Positions 4,166-64,000 of a DNA stretch of 64,000 nucleotides are shown here, piece by piece. The DNA is taken from assembly GCF_018402495.1 (NCBI RefSeq), contig NZ_JAGYIU010000001.1:496001-560000 (forward strand), written 5' to 3'. The translations under genes were made by a program, and so were the position numbers. Position 1 is the stretch's first letter; each line of letters opens with the position of its first letter. The notes beneath the pieces were generated by a model, which was given only the letters and a program-made list of their open reading frames with translations, was not told the origin of the DNA and searched no databases. Source of the stretch: Pseudoalteromonas sp. Lineage in GTDB: Bacteria > Pseudomonadota > Gammaproteobacteria > Enterobacterales > Alteromonadaceae.

Positions 4166-5134
4166 TTATGCAGCCACCAGAACTTCTGATTGCCCGGTAA
4201 ATAATTCATGAGGAGTTTTATACCCTCTTGTCTTTCTTGGCCGATGGTTGAGCTTATCAACTGCCGCCTGTATTTCTGACTCACTTAGCGCCATAAAGTC
4301 AGTTCCCTTGGGGAAGAAGCGCCTGAGTAAGCCGTTGGTATTCTCATTTATGCCCCTTTCCCATGATGAATATGGGTGAGCGAAATACACATCCGCTTCT
4401 AATTTTTGTGCAATATGCTCATGGTAAGCAAACTCTTTTCCATTATCTAAAGTCACGGTAATAACCTTATCTTTATATGGTGTCATACACTTTATCAGCG
4501 CATCGGCTGTTATTTGCGCATGTTTGCTTTCAATTCTGTGAACGATTGTATATAACGTTTTACGTTCAACCATTGTGACAAAGGCATTTTTACGCCCTTT
4601 GCCTATCACTGTGTCACCCTCCCAATCACCAATCCTAGACTTTGCATCCACAATACTTGGGCGTTCATCAATACTGACTCGATTAACTATCTGCCCACGT
4701 TTATCGTAGCTTCCATAGCGTTTTTTATACTTTTTACATGCACGAGTGAGTGTCTTATGTAGTTCACCACCACGCGCCTTGTCCCTGTAAATATATTGAT
4801 AAATCGTTTCATGATGTAAAACGACCTTTTTCTCTAAAGCTAAGCGACCTGCCACCTGCTCTGGCGAAAGTCCGTTAAGCAACAATTTATTAATCCATTC
4901 AGTAACTTCATCTGTTAACTTACTTGCTTTGAAAGATGATTTGCGTCTTTGCTCTGCAAAATTATTGGCTTGGTTAGGCCGATAGCCTTTAAGCCCTTTA
5001 TTGCGTTTTAACTCTCTGGAAATAGATGACGGTGAACGAGTTAGTTCATCAGCAATTTGTTTTTGGTTATTTCCTGCTTTTATTAACGCGTAAATCTGGT
5101 ATCTTTCTTCTTGTGTCAGCTGTTTATATTTCAT
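4166..5134 (-). CDS. IS30-family transposase
   Basis: This DDE transposase moves the surrounding IS30-type element. The N-terminus (MKYKQLTQEERYQIYAL) carries the IS30 helix-turn-helix with QKQIADELTRSPSSISRELKRN. The catalytic core shows GDWEGDTVIGK (first D), TLDNGKEFAYHE (second D) and WERGINENTNGLLRRFFPKG (E). I take the start at 5134 because it begins at the usual IS30 N-terminus and has AAGGAA upstream; an in-frame ATG at 5185 would add 17 unconserved residues. The protein, about 322 residues, looks full length, so the element may be active. Confidence 0.93.
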   Translation of the reverse strand: MKYKQLTQEERYQIYALIKAGNNQKQIADELTRSPSSISRELKRNKGLKGYRPNQANNFAEQRRKSSFKASKLTDEVTEWINKLLLNGLSPEQVAGRLALEKKVVLHHETIYQYIYRDKARGGELHKTLTRACKKYKKRYGSYDKRGQIVNRVSIDERPSIVDAKSRIGDWEGDTVIGKGRKNAFVTMVERKTLYTIVHRIESKHAQITADALIKCMTPYKDKVITVTLDNGKEFAYHEHIAQKLEADVYFAHPYSSWERGINENTNGLLRRFFPKGTDFMALSESEIQAAVDKLNHRPRKTRGYKTPHELFTGQSEVLVAA

Positions 5135-5197
5135 TAAAGCAATTTCCTTTGGCGAGAAAATGGCCGAATTATAACAGCTGGCCATCTAATCTGAGAA

Positions 5198-5210
5198 ATT
5201 GCACTTATTA
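5198..5210 (-). repeat. IS30 right terminal inverted repeat
   Basis: This is the partner of 4151-4163. Its outermost TAA (5208-5210 on the minus strand) coincides with the stop codon of the neighbouring TRIC-family gene, so the IS end may supply that stop. Confidence 0.55.
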
Positions 5211-5867
5211 TCCGAATTTAGGTCTAAATAGATTGGGTTGCCAGCCAAAATGCAGTGCGCCTAATCTTAAAAAAACACTGACCAACAGCGAACCAAGAAT
5301 GCACCATAAATAAGGGGCTTCTAACAAAAATAGCGTGGCATAGGTTAAGCCTCCTGCAAAACAGGCGGTGGAATAGAGCTCTTCGCGCATCACCAACGGC
5401 ACTTCTCGACAGATCACGTCGCGTATTAAGCCACCAAATATCCCCGTAGTCATGCCCATTGTAAGTGCAACCATCATGGTGGTGCCTTCAATTAATGCTT
5501 TTTCAATACCGACCACATTAAAAATAGCCATACCAATTGCATCAACTAACAACATGTAATAGTTAGACACATCGGGTAAGTGGCGAATAAACATAACAGT
5601 GACAAAAATAGCCACATAGGTGACATATAAAAAATCTGGGTTTGCTATCCAAAAAACGGGTTGGTTAAGAAGTATGTCTCTGAGCGTGCCACCGCCAAGC
5701 GCGGTGACTGAGCCAACCACCACCACTCCAAATCCGCCAATATCTTTATCATGGCCTAATAACGCACCTGAAATTGCAAAAAAAGCCACACCAATTAAGC
5801 TTAAAAAATTAAAATATTCTGCTGTCACTGAGGCGTCCTTTCCAATTTGAGAGTTTATACCGCTCAT
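5208..5867 (-). CDS. TRIC / UPF0126 family membrane channel protein (YadS/YicG-like)
   Basis: An inner-membrane protein of about seven hydrophobic segments, made of two similar halves. The repeat signatures are GGGTLRDILL near residues 58-67 and GGLIRDVICREVPLVMREELYS in the second half, typical of prokaryotic TRIC (trimeric intracellular cation) channels. Family members conduct monovalent cations in vitro; the physiological role in bacteria is not settled. The 219-residue length is normal. The stop codon lies exactly at the end of the adjacent IS30 element, so the natural C-terminus may have been trimmed or exchanged by a few residues. Confidence 0.88.
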   Translation of the reverse strand: MSGINSQIGKDASVTAEYFNFLSLIGVAFFAISGALLGHDKDIGGFGVVVVGSVTALGGGTLRDILLNQPVFWIANPDFLYVTYVAIFVTVMFIRHLPDVSNYYMLLVDAIGMAIFNVVGIEKALIEGTTMMVALTMGMTTGIFGGLIRDVICREVPLVMREELYSTACFAGGLTYATLFLLEAPYLWCILGSLLVSVFLRLGALHFGWQPNLFRPKFG

Positions 5868-5919
5868 TAAAAGGTAAGCGAGAGGGGATTTATATTAGCT
5901 GAATAACACTCTCTAATAA

Positions 5920-5952
5920 AACAAGCACAGGGTTATTAGCCCTGTGCTTGTT
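5920..5952 (-). terminator. Intrinsic terminator after the M20 amidohydrolase gene
   Basis: A perfect 13-bp stem (5920-5932 with 5940-5952, sequence AACAAGCACAGGG) and a 7-base loop lie just beyond the stop of the minus-strand amidohydrolase gene. The minus-strand side continues TTTATTAG, a modest U-rich tail. Confidence 0.75.
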
Positions 5953-5963
5953 ATGTTGAGTTG

Positions 5964-7253
5964 TTATTGTAAGTAGTCAACAACCAGTTGAGATAATGAT
6001 TCAACGCCGAGTTGTAAGGCGCTTTCGTCGACATAAAACTGAGGTGAATGATTACTTGGTGCCGTTTTAGCGTTTTGATCTTTTGGAGTGACGCCTAAAA
6101 AGTAAAATAGCCCGGGGGTTTCAAGCGCATAATAGCTAAAGTCTTCTGCACCGGTAATTAAATCGGTGGTAATAATGTTCTCAGCACCAGCAATACGGGC
6201 AAGCGTTGGGGTCATTTTTTGGGTGAGTGCTACATTGTTTACTGTGACAGGGTAGCCGTGATCTATATGCACATCGGCTTTTGCCCCCGCGGATTCGGCA
6301 ACCAGCTCAGCGGTTTTAGCTAAACGTTTTTTAATATCGGCACGCATAGTTTGATCAAAGGTTCTAATGGTACCAATCAGCTCTACATTATCGGGGATAA
6401 TATTTGAGCGTATGCCACCGTTAATCGCGCCAAACGAAATGACAGAAGGCGCTTTGGTTACATCAACTTGGCGAGAGGCGATAGTTTGGGTTGCCATTAT
6501 AATTTGCGATGAAGCAACAATTGGGTCTACGCCATTCCATGGACGTGAACCATGTGTTTGACGCCCAGTTACGTTAATTGTGAAAGAATCTTCACTGGCC
6601 ATTAGTGGCCCTTCACGAAAGCCAATTTGCCCTGTATTGAGTGAGCTGGTGACATGTAAACCAAACACGGCCTCAGGCTTTTGCTTAAATAAGCCTTCTT
6701 TTAACATCAGCTCAGCGCCACCTTCTTCGCCCTCGGGGGCACCTTCTTCAGCCGGTTGAAATACAAACAGTACTTCGCCCGCTAACTGATCTTTTATTTT
6801 TACCAGTGACTCTGCCACGGCCATTAAAATAGCAACATGGGTATCGTGACCACAGGCATGCATAACGCCTACTTCATTGCCACGATAGGTTGATGTTTGT
6901 TTTGAGGCAAAGGGTAAATCAACTTGTTCGGTAACCGGTAAAGCATCCATATCAGCACGCAATGCGATTAAAGGGCCTTTTTTACCGCCGCTTAATTTAG
7001 CCACAACACCGGTATGCGCAACGCCCGTTTGCACTTCAAGACCCAGTGATTTTAAATGGTTAGTAATGTACTTAGCGGTTTCAAATTCGCGATTACTCAG
7101 TTCTGGATATTGATGTAAGTGACGACGCCATGTAATGACTTTTTCACTCACACTTTGTGTTGCTTGTTCAAGTTGGGTGTTAACACTCGCGGCAAAACTA
7201 GGGGCGGAAATGGCGGTTAATAAAAAGCCACCACACATTATTTTTTTTATCAT
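5964..7253 (-). CDS. Secreted M20-family amidohydrolase / metallopeptidase
   Basis: A 429-residue zinc-dependent hydrolase of the M20D (aminoacylase/hippurate hydrolase-like) type, predicted to act in the periplasm on N-acyl amino acids or small peptides. A signal peptide ends at APSFAA near residue 22. Metal-ligand motifs are ALRADMDALPV, VMHACGHDTH and QPAEEGAPEGEEGG; the EE contains the catalytic base. A C-terminal TGAEDFSYY supplies a further ligand region. The start is backed by AAGGAATC upstream. It is a single-gene unit with its own terminator. The precise substrate cannot be read from sequence. Confidence 0.9.
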   Translation of the reverse strand: MIKKIMCGGFLLTAISAPSFAASVNTQLEQATQSVSEKVITWRRHLHQYPELSNREFETAKYITNHLKSLGLEVQTGVAHTGVVAKLSGGKKGPLIALRADMDALPVTEQVDLPFASKQTSTYRGNEVGVMHACGHDTHVAILMAVAESLVKIKDQLAGEVLFVFQPAEEGAPEGEEGGAELMLKEGLFKQKPEAVFGLHVTSSLNTGQIGFREGPLMASEDSFTINVTGRQTHGSRPWNGVDPIVASSQIIMATQTIASRQVDVTKAPSVISFGAINGGIRSNIIPDNVELIGTIRTFDQTMRADIKKRLAKTAELVAESAGAKADVHIDHGYPVTVNNVALTQKMTPTLARIAGAENIITTDLITGAEDFSYYALETPGLFYFLGVTPKDQNAKTAPSNHSPQFYVDESALQLGVESLSQLVVDYLQ

Positions 7254-44458: not shown

Positions 44459-44717
44459 GCGGGCTGCGAGCTACGGGTTTCGGGATCAGGCTCGTAACCC
44501 GCACCTCTTAGCCCGCTAACTTTTTTGACTCTAATCTTTGGTTTTTTAATCACAGAGAACACCGAGGCGCTGCGCGCTGCACCGAGAATACAAAACAAAA
44601 CCAATACCCTGTACTTTTTAATTTCATAACATTTGTATTTAATCATTTCCTCTTTTTTCTTCTATCCTCTGTGGTAAATAAATCACTAAAATCTTATTGT
44701 CATGCTTACGGCAATTT
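44459..44717. repeat. Long palindromic repeat, copy 1
   Basis: The first copy begins GCGGGCT, contains ACGGGTT...AACCCG and AGCCCGC that can pair into a cruciform (44459-44516), then a spacer with CACAGAG (44562 region) and CTCTGTGG (44668 region), an inverted pair, and ends CTTACGGCAATTT. A five-base insertion near its start distinguishes it from copy 2. Confidence 0.85.
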
Positions 44718-44971
44718 GCGGGCTACGGGTTTCGGGATCAGGCTCGTAACCCTAACCCCGCAGCCCGCTAACTTTTCTGCCTCTAGTCTTTGATTTTTTA
44801 ACCACAGAGAACACCGAGGCGCTGCGCGCTGCACTGAGAATACAAAACAAAAACCAATAATCTGTTATTTTTAATTCTCATAACATTTGTATTTAATCAT
44901 TTCCTCTGTTTTCTCCTATCCTCTGTGGTAAATAAATCACTAAAGTCTTATTGTCATGCTTACGGCAAATT
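44718..44971. repeat. Long palindromic repeat, copy 2
   Basis: A direct, nearly identical copy of 44459-44717, about 254 bases. ACCACAGAG (44801-44809) and its perfect complement CTCTGTGGT (44921-44929) flank its central part. The GC-rich block CGAGGCGCTGCGCGCTGC is common to both copies. Confidence 0.85.
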
Positions 44972-45022
44972 GCGAGCTACGGGTTTGGGGAACAGGCTCG
45001 AAGCCCGATCCCCGCAGCCCGT
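44972..45022. repeat. Long palindromic repeat, partial copy 3
   Basis: Only the first 50 or so bases of the repeat are present (GCGAGCTACGGGTTTGGGG ... CGCAGCCCG), more diverged than copies 1 and 2. A related sequence, GGCTCGTAACCCGATACCCG, recurs at 63702-63721. Confidence 0.75.
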
Positions 45023-45160
45023 AAATTTGTGAATGCATTTCTTAAAGATCTTATTGCACTGAGAGAAGAGAATGAGGAGTAAATGAGAAGATAAAACAGG
45101 TATTAGCAGATAACTTGTAGACTTAGAGCTTGATCTCGTGTGAAGCGAAGCTTCGAATGT

Positions 45161-45332: not shown

Positions 45333-48300
45333 TTAGTCAGCACTCAACGTTTTAGTCATTGCTGAGCTTGCACGACCGGCAGGTTTTACCGAGCCAGGGC
45401 GAAGGCCGCTGTCAGGGATTAACTCACGTTTGTCATGTGCCATTGCAACCGATATATGCTTGGTTTCGCTATCGGCTACAGCCGTAGGCTGTGCCATTGG
45501 CGCACTTGCATGTCCTGTTGTAATCACAGTTTTAGCGTTTACATTAGCTGAACTCGCTTGCGAAACTGTATTAGGTTGACTTTCAACCACAGGCGCTCCT
45601 TCAGCTTCTACAGGTGTTTCAGTAGCGCTAACTGGTGCTGTTTCAGCTTCAACAGGAGCTTCTTCAGCCGGTACTGATTCTTCAGCTTTTACTGGTTCTT
45701 TAGCTTTCACTGGTTCTTCAGCTTGCACTGGTTCTTCAGTTTGCACTGGTTCTTCAGTTTTCACTGGCTCTTCAGTTTGCACTGGTTCTTCAGCTTGCAC
45801 TGGTTCTTCAGCTTTCACTGGTTCTTCAGTTTTTACTGGTTCTTCAGCTTTCACTGGTTCTTCAGCTTTCACTGGTTCTTCAGTTTTTACTGGCTCTTCA
45901 GCTTTCACTGGTTCTTCAGCTTTCACTGGTTCTTCAGTTTTTACTGGCTCTTCAGCTTTTACTGGTTCTTCAGCTTTTACTGGTTCTTCAGCTTTTACTG
46001 GTTCTTCAGCTTTTACTGGTTTTTCAGCTTTTACAGGCTCTTCAACTTTCGCTAATTCTTCTTCAACAATGTTTTGTTCAACTGCATCAGAGGCATCAAC
46101 GGCCGTTTTATGTGCTTTTGCTTTTAGCTCTGCTTCGTATTCAGCAGCGGCTTGATCCGCAACTGGAATGAAAGCAGGCGCTTCATCAGACTTCTCTTGC
46201 GCGTTTTCACTTTCAGGGCGACGACGACGTTGGCCAGATGCACGAAGATGACGCGGTGAACGACGTGAGCGAGTACGTGTTTGCTCTTGCTCTTCATCTT
46301 GTGTTGCCACGTTATCGTTTGCATCAACAACAGCCTCAGCTTGTTCTTTAGCAGGTGCAGGTGCTTTTTCATCAGATACCGGCGCTTGCTTTTCAACAAC
46401 AGGAGCTTGCTCTTTCACTTGTGGCTTGTCTTCTTTAACCACTGGTTGCTCAACAGTTTGCTCAGTTGTTTGAACTTGCTCTGTGCTTTCGTCTTGTACG
46501 CGAACTTTTTTACGTAAATTACGACGTTGACGACGTACCTTAGGCTTTTGCTCTTTTGGCTCAGCATTTGCACTCTTACCCGATTTAGCCGTAGTATCCG
46601 CGTTTTGAGTTTCCTCTACTTTTACTTGGGTTTTATCTTCAGTTTTATGCTCAGGACGTTTACGCGTATTTGAATTACGACGGCGCTTATTGCGATTCTC
46701 ATTCTTGTCTTGCGTATCAGCTGCAGGCGCTGACTCATTTTTAGTTTCAGTGTCTGCAGTACGTTCGTTACGTGGTTTATTACGTGGGTTGTTATTACGA
46801 CGACGTTGGTTGTTATTACGACGACGATTATCATTGCCACGGTTATTATTTGCGCGCTCTTGCGATTGCTTTTCAGTCTGTTTTTCTGATTCTTGCTCAG
46901 TGTCAGACCTAAATAACGATTTAATCCATTTACCTAATGCGGTAAATAAACTGATTTCAGCTTTAGCCTCTACTACCGGTGCAGCTTTTGCTGCTTGTGG
47001 CGCAGGCGTTGAAGGCATAACGACGCCTTTAAGCTTCGGCTCTTCACGAACAGGTGCCGCTGGCGATTTAGACATTTCAAATGCTTCAGGCTCAGGCGCA
47101 ACAACTTGCTCGTAGCTTACAGTTTCAAGTGTTTCGTCTTTACGTAAACGCATTACTTCGTAGTGAGGTGTTTCCATGTGTTGATTAGGAATAATCACTA
47201 CATCACATTTATGATGCTTTTCAATACGGTGAACGCTACGACGTTGCTCATTCAATAAATAAGCGGCAACAGCAACAGGCACTTGAGCATTAACTTGAGC
47301 GGTGTTGTCTTTAATCGCTTCTTCTTCAATTAAACGAAGAATAGACAATGCGATTGATTCGTTAGAACGAATAGTACCTTGACCACTACAACGTGGACAA
47401 ACACCTTGGCTTGCTTCACCGAGTGAAGGGCGTAGGCGTTGGCGCGACATTTCAAGTAAACCAAAGCGAGAAATTTTACCAATTTGAACGCGCGCACGAT
47501 CTGGGCGAGCAGCATCTTTTAAGCGGTTTTCTACTTCACGTTGATGACGTGGAGGTGTCATATCAATAAAGTCGATAACAATTAAGCCACCTAAATCACG
47601 TAAACGAAGTTGACGTGCAATTTCATCTGCCGCTTCTAGGTTGGTGTTAAGCGCTGTTTCTTCAATATCGCCGCCTTTTGTTGCTTTTGACGAGTTGATA
47701 TCGATAGAAGTCAGTGCTTCAGTAGGGTCAATTACAATTGAACCACCTGAAGGTAAGCGTACTTCACGTTGGAACGCAGACTCAATTTGGCTTTCAATTT
47801 GGTAGTGTGTAAATAAAGGTGTATCACCTTGATAAAGCTTAACGCGGCTCATGAAATCAGGACGAAAACGCTCTATGTGCGCTTTAGCTTCTTCAAAAAC
47901 ACGAGGCTTATCAATTAAAATTTCGCCAATGTCACGACGTAAATAATCGCGAATTGCACGGAAAATCACGTTACTTTCTTGGTGAATTAAAAATGGTGCT
48001 TTTGCACTGTCTGCCGCTTGTTGAATGGCTTCCCAGTGGACTAATAATGCTTTTAAATCGTAGTTTAGTTCTTCAAACGACTTACCAACACCTGCGGTAC
48101 GTACAATTAAGCCCATACCTTTAGGTAGTTCTAAGCGGCTTAGCGACTCTTTAAGTTCAGTACGCTCATCACCCTCAATACGGCGAGAAATACCGCCAGC
48201 GCGAGGGTTGTTAGGCATAAGCACTAAATAACTACCTGCCACGCTGATAAAGGTAGTCAGTGCAGCACCTTTTTGGCCGCGCTCTTCTTTATCAACTTGT

Positions 48301-61668: not shown

Positions 61669-63528
61669 ATGACGACTCTCTCGGTGCATCACCCGCTGTT
61701 ACTTATGGGACCTATGGTGCGCCGAGCAGAAAAAACCGCAGTTTGTATTCAGTTTGCCACTTCAAAACGGGTTAATTGCCGTATAGAACTCATGGATCAT
61801 GAATGTTATAGCGAGCAGCACACAGTCGCCCTCGGTGAGCATTTATTTTTACAGTTTGTGGTTATTAAACCGATAAACAGCCAATTCCCACGGGACACCT
61901 TATTACATTATCAGCTATTTTTAGACGACAATGCAGCTGACTTATCAGCATTTAGTTTTAATAAGCAGACGACGCCAGCGTTTGTGATCCCCAAAAAGCT
62001 AACACAAATTTTGCACGGCTCGTGTCGTAACGCCCATCACCCTGCAAAAGACAGCCTAGTCAGTTCAAGCCAATGGCAAGGTTTTCAACGCAGCCATAAT
62101 CAGCAAGGAGCGCAGTTATTACTGCTTTCGGGCGACCAGGTGTACGCCGATGACGTAGCAGGGCCCATGCTATTAGCGATTCACCAGTTAATAAAACAGT
62201 TAGGTATTTATAAAGAGCAACCACTTGAACTTGATTTACCTCAAGATATAACCGAGCAGCTTTATGGTCGTCATCATTTATTACCCACCACCTCATGGAA
62301 AAAGCGCTCTAAATTAGGTATAGGTTATTGGTTAAAAAAAGACGAGCCGCATTTTTCCAGCGTAAAAGCGTATAATCACCTGATTCACTTTGAAGAATTT
62401 GTTGCGCTTTATTTACTTAATTTTAGTAGCACCGCGTGGCAATATGTTGATTTAACAAACCTTACTTACTCAAGTAGTAACGAAAAAAACCAAACACTGT
62501 TTAATACCGAAAAAACCGTACTCATTGATTATGTGCAAGGTTTAGCTGAAGTAGAGCGATTATTTGCGAATGTGTCGACCTTGATGATGTTTGACGATCA
62601 CGATGTAACCGATGATTGGAACCTCACCGCCGGATGGGAGCAAGCAATTAACCAAAACCCGAGCAGCAAACGCATTGTTAACAATGGTCTAGCAAGTTAT
62701 TGGCTGTTTCAGGGAATGGGTAACGACGCACTACAAAAAACCGGCGCCTTATTAACCCCGTTTATAACCAGTTTAGCGGGCAACAAGCACTGGCAATTTA
62801 AAGCGTTTGATAAACACCTAAACGATTTTAACCATTGGCATTATGAGTTAACTACCATTCCCAAAGTGGTGGTGCTCGACACCCGAACACATCGCTGGCG
62901 TAACGAGCAAAACTTTAACGAACCCTCAGGCTTATTAGATTGGGAGCGCCTTACAGAGCTTGAAGAAAGCCTACTTAGCCATGACCAAGTCATTATTGTA
63001 TCGCCCGCTCCTGTATTTGGGGTTAAATCAATAGAGGCCATTCAAGCCGTGTTTAACATGTGTGGGCAACCGCTGATGGTTGATGTAGAAAACTGGATGG
63101 CGCACGAAGGCTCAGCAAAAAAACTGCTCGACACATTTAGACGCACCGACACCCCAAACGAAACACTGATTTTATCGGGCGATGTACATTATTCGTTTTG
63201 TTTTTCAGTACAAAAGCGTTTTGGCGAACACCACAATAGAATTTGGCAACTAACCGCCAGCGGGATCAAAAATGAGTTTCCCCGTAAGCTAATAAATGTG
63301 CTTGATAAACTCGACTCTATTTTATATGGACCTAAAAGCCCACTAAACTTTTTTACCAAACGCTGGCACATGGAGGTAGACAAACACCAAACCAATGGCA
63401 AAGGGCAAAAGTACCTAGTAAGTGATTCAGCAATAAGTTTAGTTACCCTAAAAGCTGGGAATTTAGCTCGTTATCAACTTATACACGGCGACGGCCACAC
63501 CACCGAATTTGATTTAAAAGAACAGTAA
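61669..63528 (+). CDS. PhoD-like metallophosphatase / phosphodiesterase
   Basis: A 619-residue protein of the PhoD-like family. Metal-binding motifs in order: HGSCRNAHHPAKD, LLLSGDQVYADDV, LMMFDDHDVTDDWN, VVVLDTRTHRW, LILSGDVHYSFCFS and QLTASGIKNEFPRK. There is no signal peptide, so it is probably cytoplasmic, unlike secreted PhoD. The N-terminal 110 residues resemble the family's beta-rich domain. It follows tatD by four bases and seems to end the long operon. The substrate is unknown. Confidence 0.85.
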   Translation: MTTLSVHHPLLLMGPMVRRAEKTAVCIQFATSKRVNCRIELMDHECYSEQHTVALGEHLFLQFVVIKPINSQFPRDTLLHYQLFLDDNAADLSAFSFNKQTTPAFVIPKKLTQILHGSCRNAHHPAKDSLVSSSQWQGFQRSHNQQGAQLLLLSGDQVYADDVAGPMLLAIHQLIKQLGIYKEQPLELDLPQDITEQLYGRHHLLPTTSWKKRSKLGIGYWLKKDEPHFSSVKAYNHLIHFEEFVALYLLNFSSTAWQYVDLTNLTYSSSNEKNQTLFNTEKTVLIDYVQGLAEVERLFANVSTLMMFDDHDVTDDWNLTAGWEQAINQNPSSKRIVNNGLASYWLFQGMGNDALQKTGALLTPFITSLAGNKHWQFKAFDKHLNDFNHWHYELTTIPKVVVLDTRTHRWRNEQNFNEPSGLLDWERLTELEESLLSHDQVIIVSPAPVFGVKSIEAIQAVFNMCGQPLMVDVENWMAHEGSAKKLLDTFRRTDTPNETLILSGDVHYSFCFSVQKRFGEHHNRIWQLTASGIKNEFPRKLINVLDKLDSILYGPKSPLNFFTKRWHMEVDKHQTNGKGQKYLVSDSAISLVTLKAGNLARYQLIHGDGHTTEFDLKEQ

Positions 63529-63737
63529 TTTAAATACAAGAATTAGGTCGCTATTATTGCCGACATGTAGCAGCGACTTCATGTCGCGTCATTTTTTAAT
63601 GTCGTGAGCGACGGGCGACGAGGTGCAGGTTCCACCGAAAAAACCTCGGGGTCAACCTTATCCGTAGGCGAGAGTTTACCTCGCGCTTATTTTAAGGTTA
63701 GGCTCGTAACCCGATACCCGTAACTCATTTTAAAGAC
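63529..63737. other. Palindrome-rich intergenic DNA
   Basis: No gene. It contains GCGAC-TTCAT-GTCGC (63574-63588), followed by a short T-run that may end the tatD-phosphatase transcript, CGAGGT...ACCTCG (about 63619-63648), and GGCTCGTAACCCGATACCCG (63702-63721), related to the repeats at 44459-45022. Confidence 0.55.
63574..63598 (+). terminator. Possible terminator or REP-like hairpin after the PhoD-like gene
   Basis: A 5-bp GC stem with TTCAT loop, then GTCATTTTTT. The stem is short and the T-run displaced by four bases. The AGCGACTTCATGTCGC motif also looks like a dispersed REP-type element. Confidence 0.4.
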
Positions 63738-63842
63738 AAAAAAAGACCCAGAGCTATAAAACTCTGGGTTATAGGGGGCTCATGTGGTGAGCCCTGCGCT
63801 AACTAAAAACACTTTCAGATTCTTAGGGAGAAGTTGAAAGTT
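63738..63842 (-). ncRNA. Candidate small RNA, three hairpins ending in an intrinsic terminator
   Basis: Read on the minus strand, about 105 bases: a 5' hairpin ACTTTCA...TGAAAGT (63841-63835 with 63817-63811) whose inner TTCT-CCCTA-AGAA loop is C-rich; a second hairpin GGGCTCA-CCACA-TGAGCCC (63794-63776); and a terminator ACCCAGAG-TTTTATAG-CTCTGGGT (63769-63746) followed by C and seven T. A TATACT box at 63854-63849 would start transcription near 63842. There is no good -35 and no open reading frame. The C-rich CUCCCU loop could pair with ribosome-binding sites, as many regulatory RNAs do. Confidence 0.55.
63746..63769 (-). terminator. Intrinsic terminator of the candidate small RNA
   Basis: A perfect 8-bp stem with an eight-base loop; seven U residues follow on the minus strand only, showing the direction of transcription. 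No minus-strand gene precedes it up to the window end. Confidence 0.8.
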
Positions 63843-64000
63843 ATTTAAGTATAGTCAAAAGTGCTAAAAACACACATTTTTGTTCGTTTTTTATACTGTC
63901 GTAATTACAGCAAGTTACATTTGTTATGCACATCTTTATTAGAGTTTACACCCAGTTTATTAACTGCGTATTTTGTACTAAATCTCGTGGTAAAGAATTT

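Follow-up and report, generated by a model that had tools for sequence, protein, structure and literature searches.

A divergent SdsR-type small RNA gene predicted directly downstream of rsmF in Pseudoalteromonas

The locus and its predicted fold

At the right end of the window, that is, of the whole 64,000-nt stretch of Pseudoalteromonas DNA analysed, the minus strand carries the 3' end of rsmF, identified with the NCBIfam model NF008898 (697.4 bits; cut-off 588) and spanning 4946-6397(-) of our locus L002. Its stop codon at 63946 lies about 105 nt upstream of a compact element of the same strand (Table 1). On the other side of this element is a PhoD-like gene (61669-63528, PF09423), and the stretch between that gene and the terminator of the element (63546-63735) contains two plus-strand terminator-like hairpins; no second copy of this stretch was found in the few stretches of the same genome or in the relatives' loci examined. 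Folded on the minus strand, 63738-63842 reaches -36.8 kcal/mol, whereas 200 dinucleotide shuffles average -19.4 (sd 3.1) and none of them is as stable (z -5.7). The predicted fold of 63738-63841 comprises three stem-loops, the last of which is an intrinsic terminator whose hairpin a terminator scan places at 63769-63746(-), thereby recovering the minus-strand U7 terminator of the original prediction. The three hairpins had also been described as perfect, which does not apply to the first one, made of 7 pairs, an internal loop and 4 pairs. A scan of the window for tRNA and tmRNA genes detected neither.

Table 1. Features of the rsmF-proximal locus in window coordinates
Feature	Position	Strand	Basis or remark
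3' end of rsmF (16S rRNA m5C1407 methyltransferase)	63946..64000, continues past window	-	NF008898
-10 box C-TATACT, C at -13, TAA after	63848..63854	-	resembles sigma-S extended -10
SdsR-type small RNA gene, predicted transcript ~104 nt	63738..63841	-	RF00111, z -5.6, model R1
5' hairpin, 7-pair outer stem around C-rich segment	63811..63841	-	fold, covariation; form typical of genus
CUUCUCCC motif, putative seed	63826..63833	-	exact in all 40 genus loci
Single-stranded core UUAGCGCA	63795..63802	-	common to E. coli SdsR
Second hairpin, GGCUC/GAGCC core	63776..63794	-	7 pairs; core pairs in 24/24 distinct rows
Intrinsic terminator, 10-pair stem (one G-U), then C + 7 U	63738..63769	-	terminator scan, covariation

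Repeats were seen elsewhere in the window. An array with an 18-base period (45570-46145) lies inside a 1090-aa minus-strand ORF, RNase E-like by eye, and encodes EEPVKA-type hexapeptides in the C-terminal part of this ORF. Between the latter and a 338-aa plus-strand ORF there are two direct-repeat pairs (44465-45028), one of 136 nt (91% identical, spaced 252 nt) and one of 163 nt (89% identical, spaced 254 nt).

Identity and distribution of the RNA

The Rfam search that had been proposed as a check gave a twofold answer. With default thresholds it reports no match within the window, whereas in E-value mode the SdsR/RyeB family (RF00111) aligns with the element end to end (model positions 1-100 of 100) at 34.8 bits, with an E-value of 1.2e-4 when 501 bases were searched against the whole of Rfam and of 5.9e-5 in a separate alignment run. 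The default scan is silent because this score falls just below the curated RF00111 cut-off of 38 bits. The alignment contains UUAGCGCA, the GGCUC..GAGCC hairpin and the terminator, all present in the window copy. Two other families came up at scores far from their cut-offs and were rejected: Qrr (RF00378, 16.1 bits; cut-off 50) and anti-hemB (RF02837, 21.6 bits; cut-off 49.5). In the opposite direction, a covariance model (R1) built from 25 genus sequences scores the window copy, itself one of its rows, at 88.3 bits and recovers the annotated sdsR of E. coli K-12 at 32.5 bits (E 1.5e-4). R1 also matches 22 of 22 sdsR loci tested (a subset of 34 from outside the family) and none of 14 other loci.

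The comparison with the E. coli K-12 RNA (NC_000913 1923104-1923207) reveals a conserved body and a divergent front. Both RNAs are about equally long, E. coli SdsR being annotated as 104 nt, and they have in common the UUAGCGCA core, the GGCUC..GAGCC hairpin, a CCCU stretch and a strong terminator. By contrast, the 5' third of the window RNA gives no convincing alignment with E. coli SdsR, which has a GGCAAGGC segment where the window RNA has the hairpin with CUUCUCCC. In E. coli K-12 the gene order is rsmF, yebV, yebW, pphA, sdsR, yebY, rsmF and sdsR having opposite orientations, whereas in the window the RNA lies directly behind rsmF on the same strand. The synteny therefore amounts to a shared neighbourhood only, given the opposite strands and the presence of yebV, yebW and pphA between the two E. 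coli genes. Judging from the reciprocal model matches together with this neighbourhood, the locus is a divergent ortholog of sdsR (ryeB).

E. coli sdsR adjoins pphA and also RyeA, while the window locus shows no sign of a conserved RyeA. A functional antisense RNA of the RyeA/SraC type on the plus strand would agree with the RF00101 match to that strand (34.0 bits; cut-off 37) and with the three of ten named relatives scanned that pass the RF00101 cut-off. However, RF00101 is largely the complement of SdsR, so such matches are expected, and conservation in the genus falls from a mean of 0.80 over the RNA to 0.32 over the first 50 nt past its U-run (40 genus sequences), precisely where a RyeA promoter would sit. 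Between 62000 and 64000, moreover, promoter-like sites are no more frequent than in shuffles, with three found, all of them on the plus strand, against 4.0 expected on both strands. We give scarcely any credence to this opposite-strand alternative and retain the minus-strand SdsR ortholog.

Genes of this type recur among the relatives. Of 60 relatives, RF00111 detects them in 34 at E <= 0.001, with 26 scoring above the cut-off, and of 148 order genomes in 74, with 66 above it, the other 74 giving no match at strict filters; among the 14 named control genomes, only E. coli matched in both surveys. A family-wide DNA search found few copies (5 of 79 genomes, including the own one) because nucleotide similarity is too low, and models were therefore used. 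R1 matches 172 of 196 family genomes and 13 of 14 individually searched genus genomes, including all 12 that RF00111 had missed; the genome without an R1 match is G157. With the RF00111, DNA and R1 searches combined, the gene is found in 40 of the 41 genus genomes searched. Nine of the ten named loci scanned exceed the RF00111 cut-off, so many named copies have probably already been marked by automatic annotation. The exception is P. distincta (L216), which leaves three of the four Pseudoalteromonas among them above the cut-off (L253, L251 and L257); the copy of P. haloplanktis ATCC 14393 (L253) has the same CUUCUCCC element and core as the window copy.

The label "undescribed" in the original prediction must consequently be dropped, in view of the end-to-end RF00111 match, the relatives above the cut-off and the recovery of E. 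coli sdsR by R1. The main papers on the conservation and targets of SdsR reportedly appeared in 2012 and 2016 in Nucleic Acids Research. Among the titles and abstract openings consulted we found no description of SdsR/RyeB in Pseudoalteromonas, where homologs may have been mentioned earlier, and the word SdsR is absent from the main text of a paper on P. fuliginea small RNAs (PMC11882849). Outside the enterobacteria, the family is named in Vibrio parahaemolyticus, with a RyeB (svpa1713.1; PMC6601013), a likeness by name.

Conservation, promoter and relation to rsmF

Conservation of the paired bases in relatives, proposed originally as a check together with covariation, is borne out by the alignment A1 (24 distinct rows), in which 95.0% of the cells are paired and 9 of 20 pairs show two-sided changes, in 32 cells. 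None of 500 shuffles reaches the paired fraction, the two-sided pairs or the two-sided cells, although the number of further pair types is equalled in 20 of 500; the sequences are related, and these shuffle counts are not to be read as probabilities. Sliding the pairing partners removes most of the covariation signal. Two-sided changes affect 4 of 7 pairs in the 5' stem (90.4% of cells paired) and 5 of 8 in the terminator stem, and the core pairs of helix 2 never vary, which leaves no covariation test possible there. The UUAGCGCA-type core is also conserved at the level of sequence: AGCGCA is present in every one of the 39 same-family loci outside the genus and in 29 of the 33 from other families, all found by models that contain it, and some genus members have AACGC there. 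The conservation profile was anchored on CTTCTCCC, whose own value is thus circular; all 40 genus loci have this motif and were included.

The C-rich segment of the 5' hairpin is a hallmark of the genus. Beyond the full set of genus loci, some of which were found with R1, CUUCUCCC is exact in all 23 model-independent ones (the window and 22 found by RF00111), and a helix encloses the C-rich motif in 35 of 35 distinct genus sequences. The free energy of this hairpin alone is unexceptional (mean z -0.27 over the 35 distinct sequences, with mononucleotide shuffles of the flanks), so that it rests on covariation and conservation; its distal part has a conservation of 0.66, little over that of the upstream stretch (0.565). 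The original prediction saw here a loop exposing CUCCCU and able to pair with Shine-Dalgarno sequences. The segment itself is genuine and fixed throughout the genus, but the minimum-energy fold of hairpin 1 fully exposes CCCUA, not CUCCCU, and in only 10 of the 35 distinct sequences are at least 5 of the 6 bases of UCUCCC unpaired; the Shine-Dalgarno pairing gained no support from the genome counts given below.

A family-wide occurrence of the CUUCUCCC hairpin was considered and rejected, the motif being found in 1 of 9 RF00111-found and 5 of 30 R1-found same-family loci outside the genus (the latter leaving out L063), as well as in 1 of 33 other-family loci; in another same-family locus, L114, it is displaced upstream by about 40 nt. 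When named genomes were scanned for the pattern, 89 stretches came up and, among the matches listed, 73 of 80 match R1, coming from Pseudoalteromonas, Alteromonas, Aliiglaciecola, Salinimonas, Aestuariibacter, Neptunicella and other Alteromonadaceae. The other seven of the 80 are R1-negative, six of them from distant phyla by title, and were taken as chance occurrences. By eye, CUUCUCCC is absent from the 5' part of E. coli SdsR. In Salmonella, the contact of SdsR with ompD includes G26 (PMC4911921); by our count this position lies upstream of the core, in the E. coli GGCAAGGC segment, and is unrecognisable in the window RNA.

Upstream of the RNA, the TATACT box (63853-63848, minus strand) is indeed at the proper distance, its spacing fitting a start near 63841. 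A generic sigma-70 scan does not report it, and the complete C-TATACT-TAA element resembles the sigma-S extended -10 consensus. The mean conservation of CTATACTT is 0.96, versus 0.565 in the 100 nt upstream (40 genus sequences), a stretch in which some spots are also well conserved. In the form C-TAYACT-TA, the preceding C and the following TA are invariant in 27 of 27 loci, retrieved with a search pattern that itself fixed four of the six box letters; the C precedes the box in 40 of 40 genus loci, partly by construction since C-preceded boxes were preferred. By eye, E. coli sdsR likewise has a -10-like box after a C.

The DNA around the hairpins had been thought to hold no gene to terminate, and a minus-strand gene beyond position 64000 had been named as the finding that could account for the terminator. 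Such a gene exists: rsmF ends on the same strand, and its 3' end could use this terminator. In 38 of 40 genus loci the gene precedes the RNA on the same strand, its stop codon lying 70-158 nt from the motif in 37 of these 38 and 531 nt in one; in L043 and L096 it was not found within the 1.5 kb examined. In the interval from rsmF to the RNA, a script modelled on the terminator scan rule detected nothing resembling a terminator at any of the 38 loci with rsmF upstream. The terminator of the RNA therefore probably serves rsmF too and is apparently common to both.

This arrangement is what would be expected if no distinct RNA were made and the hairpins simply belonged to rsmF as its 3' untranslated region and terminator, yet several observations make that reading very improbable. 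A terminator needs neither a -10 box as conserved as this one nor conserved unpaired motifs, the SdsR match runs over the whole element, and SdsR exists without rsmF directly upstream, in E. coli and at two of the 40 genus loci. The existence of a separate RNA survives the discovery of rsmF precisely because a terminator alone would account neither for the conserved box and unpaired motifs nor for the end-to-end match to SdsR. The same strand, the short gap and the missing intervening terminator would also suit a small RNA cut by a ribonuclease from the rsmF transcript, its promoter being minor or silent. We regard such an origin as unlikely: conservation is far higher in the -10 box than in the DNA preceding it, and E. 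coli sdsR is driven by its own sigma-S promoter (PMC6610125). Transcription from an own promoter and processing from the rsmF transcript may also operate side by side. Returning to the SdsR ortholog as an autonomous unit, the hairpins very probably represent, as far as sequence comparison can tell, a real small-RNA gene that was correctly spotted at the outset: a predicted minus-strand gene, about 104 nt long, that has a promoter box and a terminator of its own as well as conserved, covarying pairs.

Predicted function and targets

The genome has the partners that an RNA of the SdsR type would require, with matches for rpoS (466.1 bits; cut-off 378.7) and hfq (101.6 bits; cut-off 61.7). Its rpoS and mutS genes adjoin each other (C3:554807-558269; L105 and L182), an adjacency found in other gammaproteobacteria as well. 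According to PMC10954441, SdsR is made together with RpoS in growth arrest and engages in Hfq-assisted contacts with many mRNAs, some of which are repressed. By analogy, in stationary phase or starvation the sigma-S RNA polymerase would start near 63841 from the C-TATACT-TAA box, and the resulting RNA of about 104 nt would end at the U-run, where rsmF transcripts apparently also end. Hfq would hold this RNA by its 3' U-run, for which seven U are available, and mRNAs would be contacted, and mostly repressed, through base pairing with the unpaired UUAGCGCA and with the lineage-specific CUUCUCCC hairpin. From the sequence features we infer transcription, sigma-S dependence, Hfq binding and repression. 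The RNA is most likely a base-pairing regulator of the Hfq type, putatively induced by sigma-S, whose targets are in part specific to the lineage. Considering all readings, we place high confidence in an sdsR ortholog behind rsmF as the best overall explanation, with a proposed sigma-S-started, Hfq-held and base-pairing RNA of about 104 nt as its product.

The predicted targets probably differ, at least in part, from those of E. coli. Duplex energies of the window RNA with the yeaG, tolC and mutS orthologs of its own genome, calculated with accessibility ignored, have z-scores of 0.2, 1.6 and -0.4, respectively. The orthologs were sought by family, tolC being the best of 6 matches. The control with E. 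coli SdsR and the corresponding leaders gave z -2.4 (p 0.02) for yeaG, -1.3 (p 0.105) for tolC and -0.4 (p 0.365) for mutS, one of the three being clearly found. This weakly suggests that the known targets of E. coli SdsR are not common to the window RNA. A general anti-Shine-Dalgarno role was rejected since, over 40 genus genomes, GGGAGAAGT occurs within 12 bases of an ATG 124 times, compared with 217 for the reversed pattern.

One GGGAGAAGT site recurs in 16 of the 40 genus genomes, 13 of the 16 having been retrieved (L160, from the own genome at C3 ~932.8-933.2 kb, and likewise L161-L170, L172 and L173). An ordinary ribosome-binding site was considered here and dismissed, the site being intergenic, GGA-rich and terminator-ended in the three of 13 read closely (L160, L163 and L166). 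By eye, it lies between cytochrome c-like and yihI-like genes; the stretch contains AATAATAA as well as GGA motifs and ends in a strong terminator. We take the gene that follows to be yihI and, by assumption, compare the stretch to csrC; its composition indicates that it is probably a Csr-type regulatory RNA. The GGGAGAAGU segment of this candidate RNA is the full complement of ACUUCUCCC in the window SdsR.

These observations lead us to a broader scenario, which we advance tentatively and with less than even confidence. In the SdsR of Pseudoalteromonas and part of the Alteromonas group, a C-rich hairpin with CUUCUCCC may have replaced the 5' part through which the E. coli and Salmonella RNAs pair with their targets, with core and terminator kept, and the gene would now follow rsmF as its 3' tail, one terminator serving both; its targets would have been rewired, possibly including a Csr-type RNA through GGGAGAAGU. 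What looked like an unknown RNA becomes a named one, and the reason why default annotation misses the window copy is apparent. To the family are added a sub-threshold copy, a position downstream of rsmF with what appears to be a common terminator, and a C-rich 5' hairpin fixed in the genus. An ancient stress RNA whose core is fixed and whose front end has been exchanged would offer a natural experiment on how the targets of small RNAs evolve.
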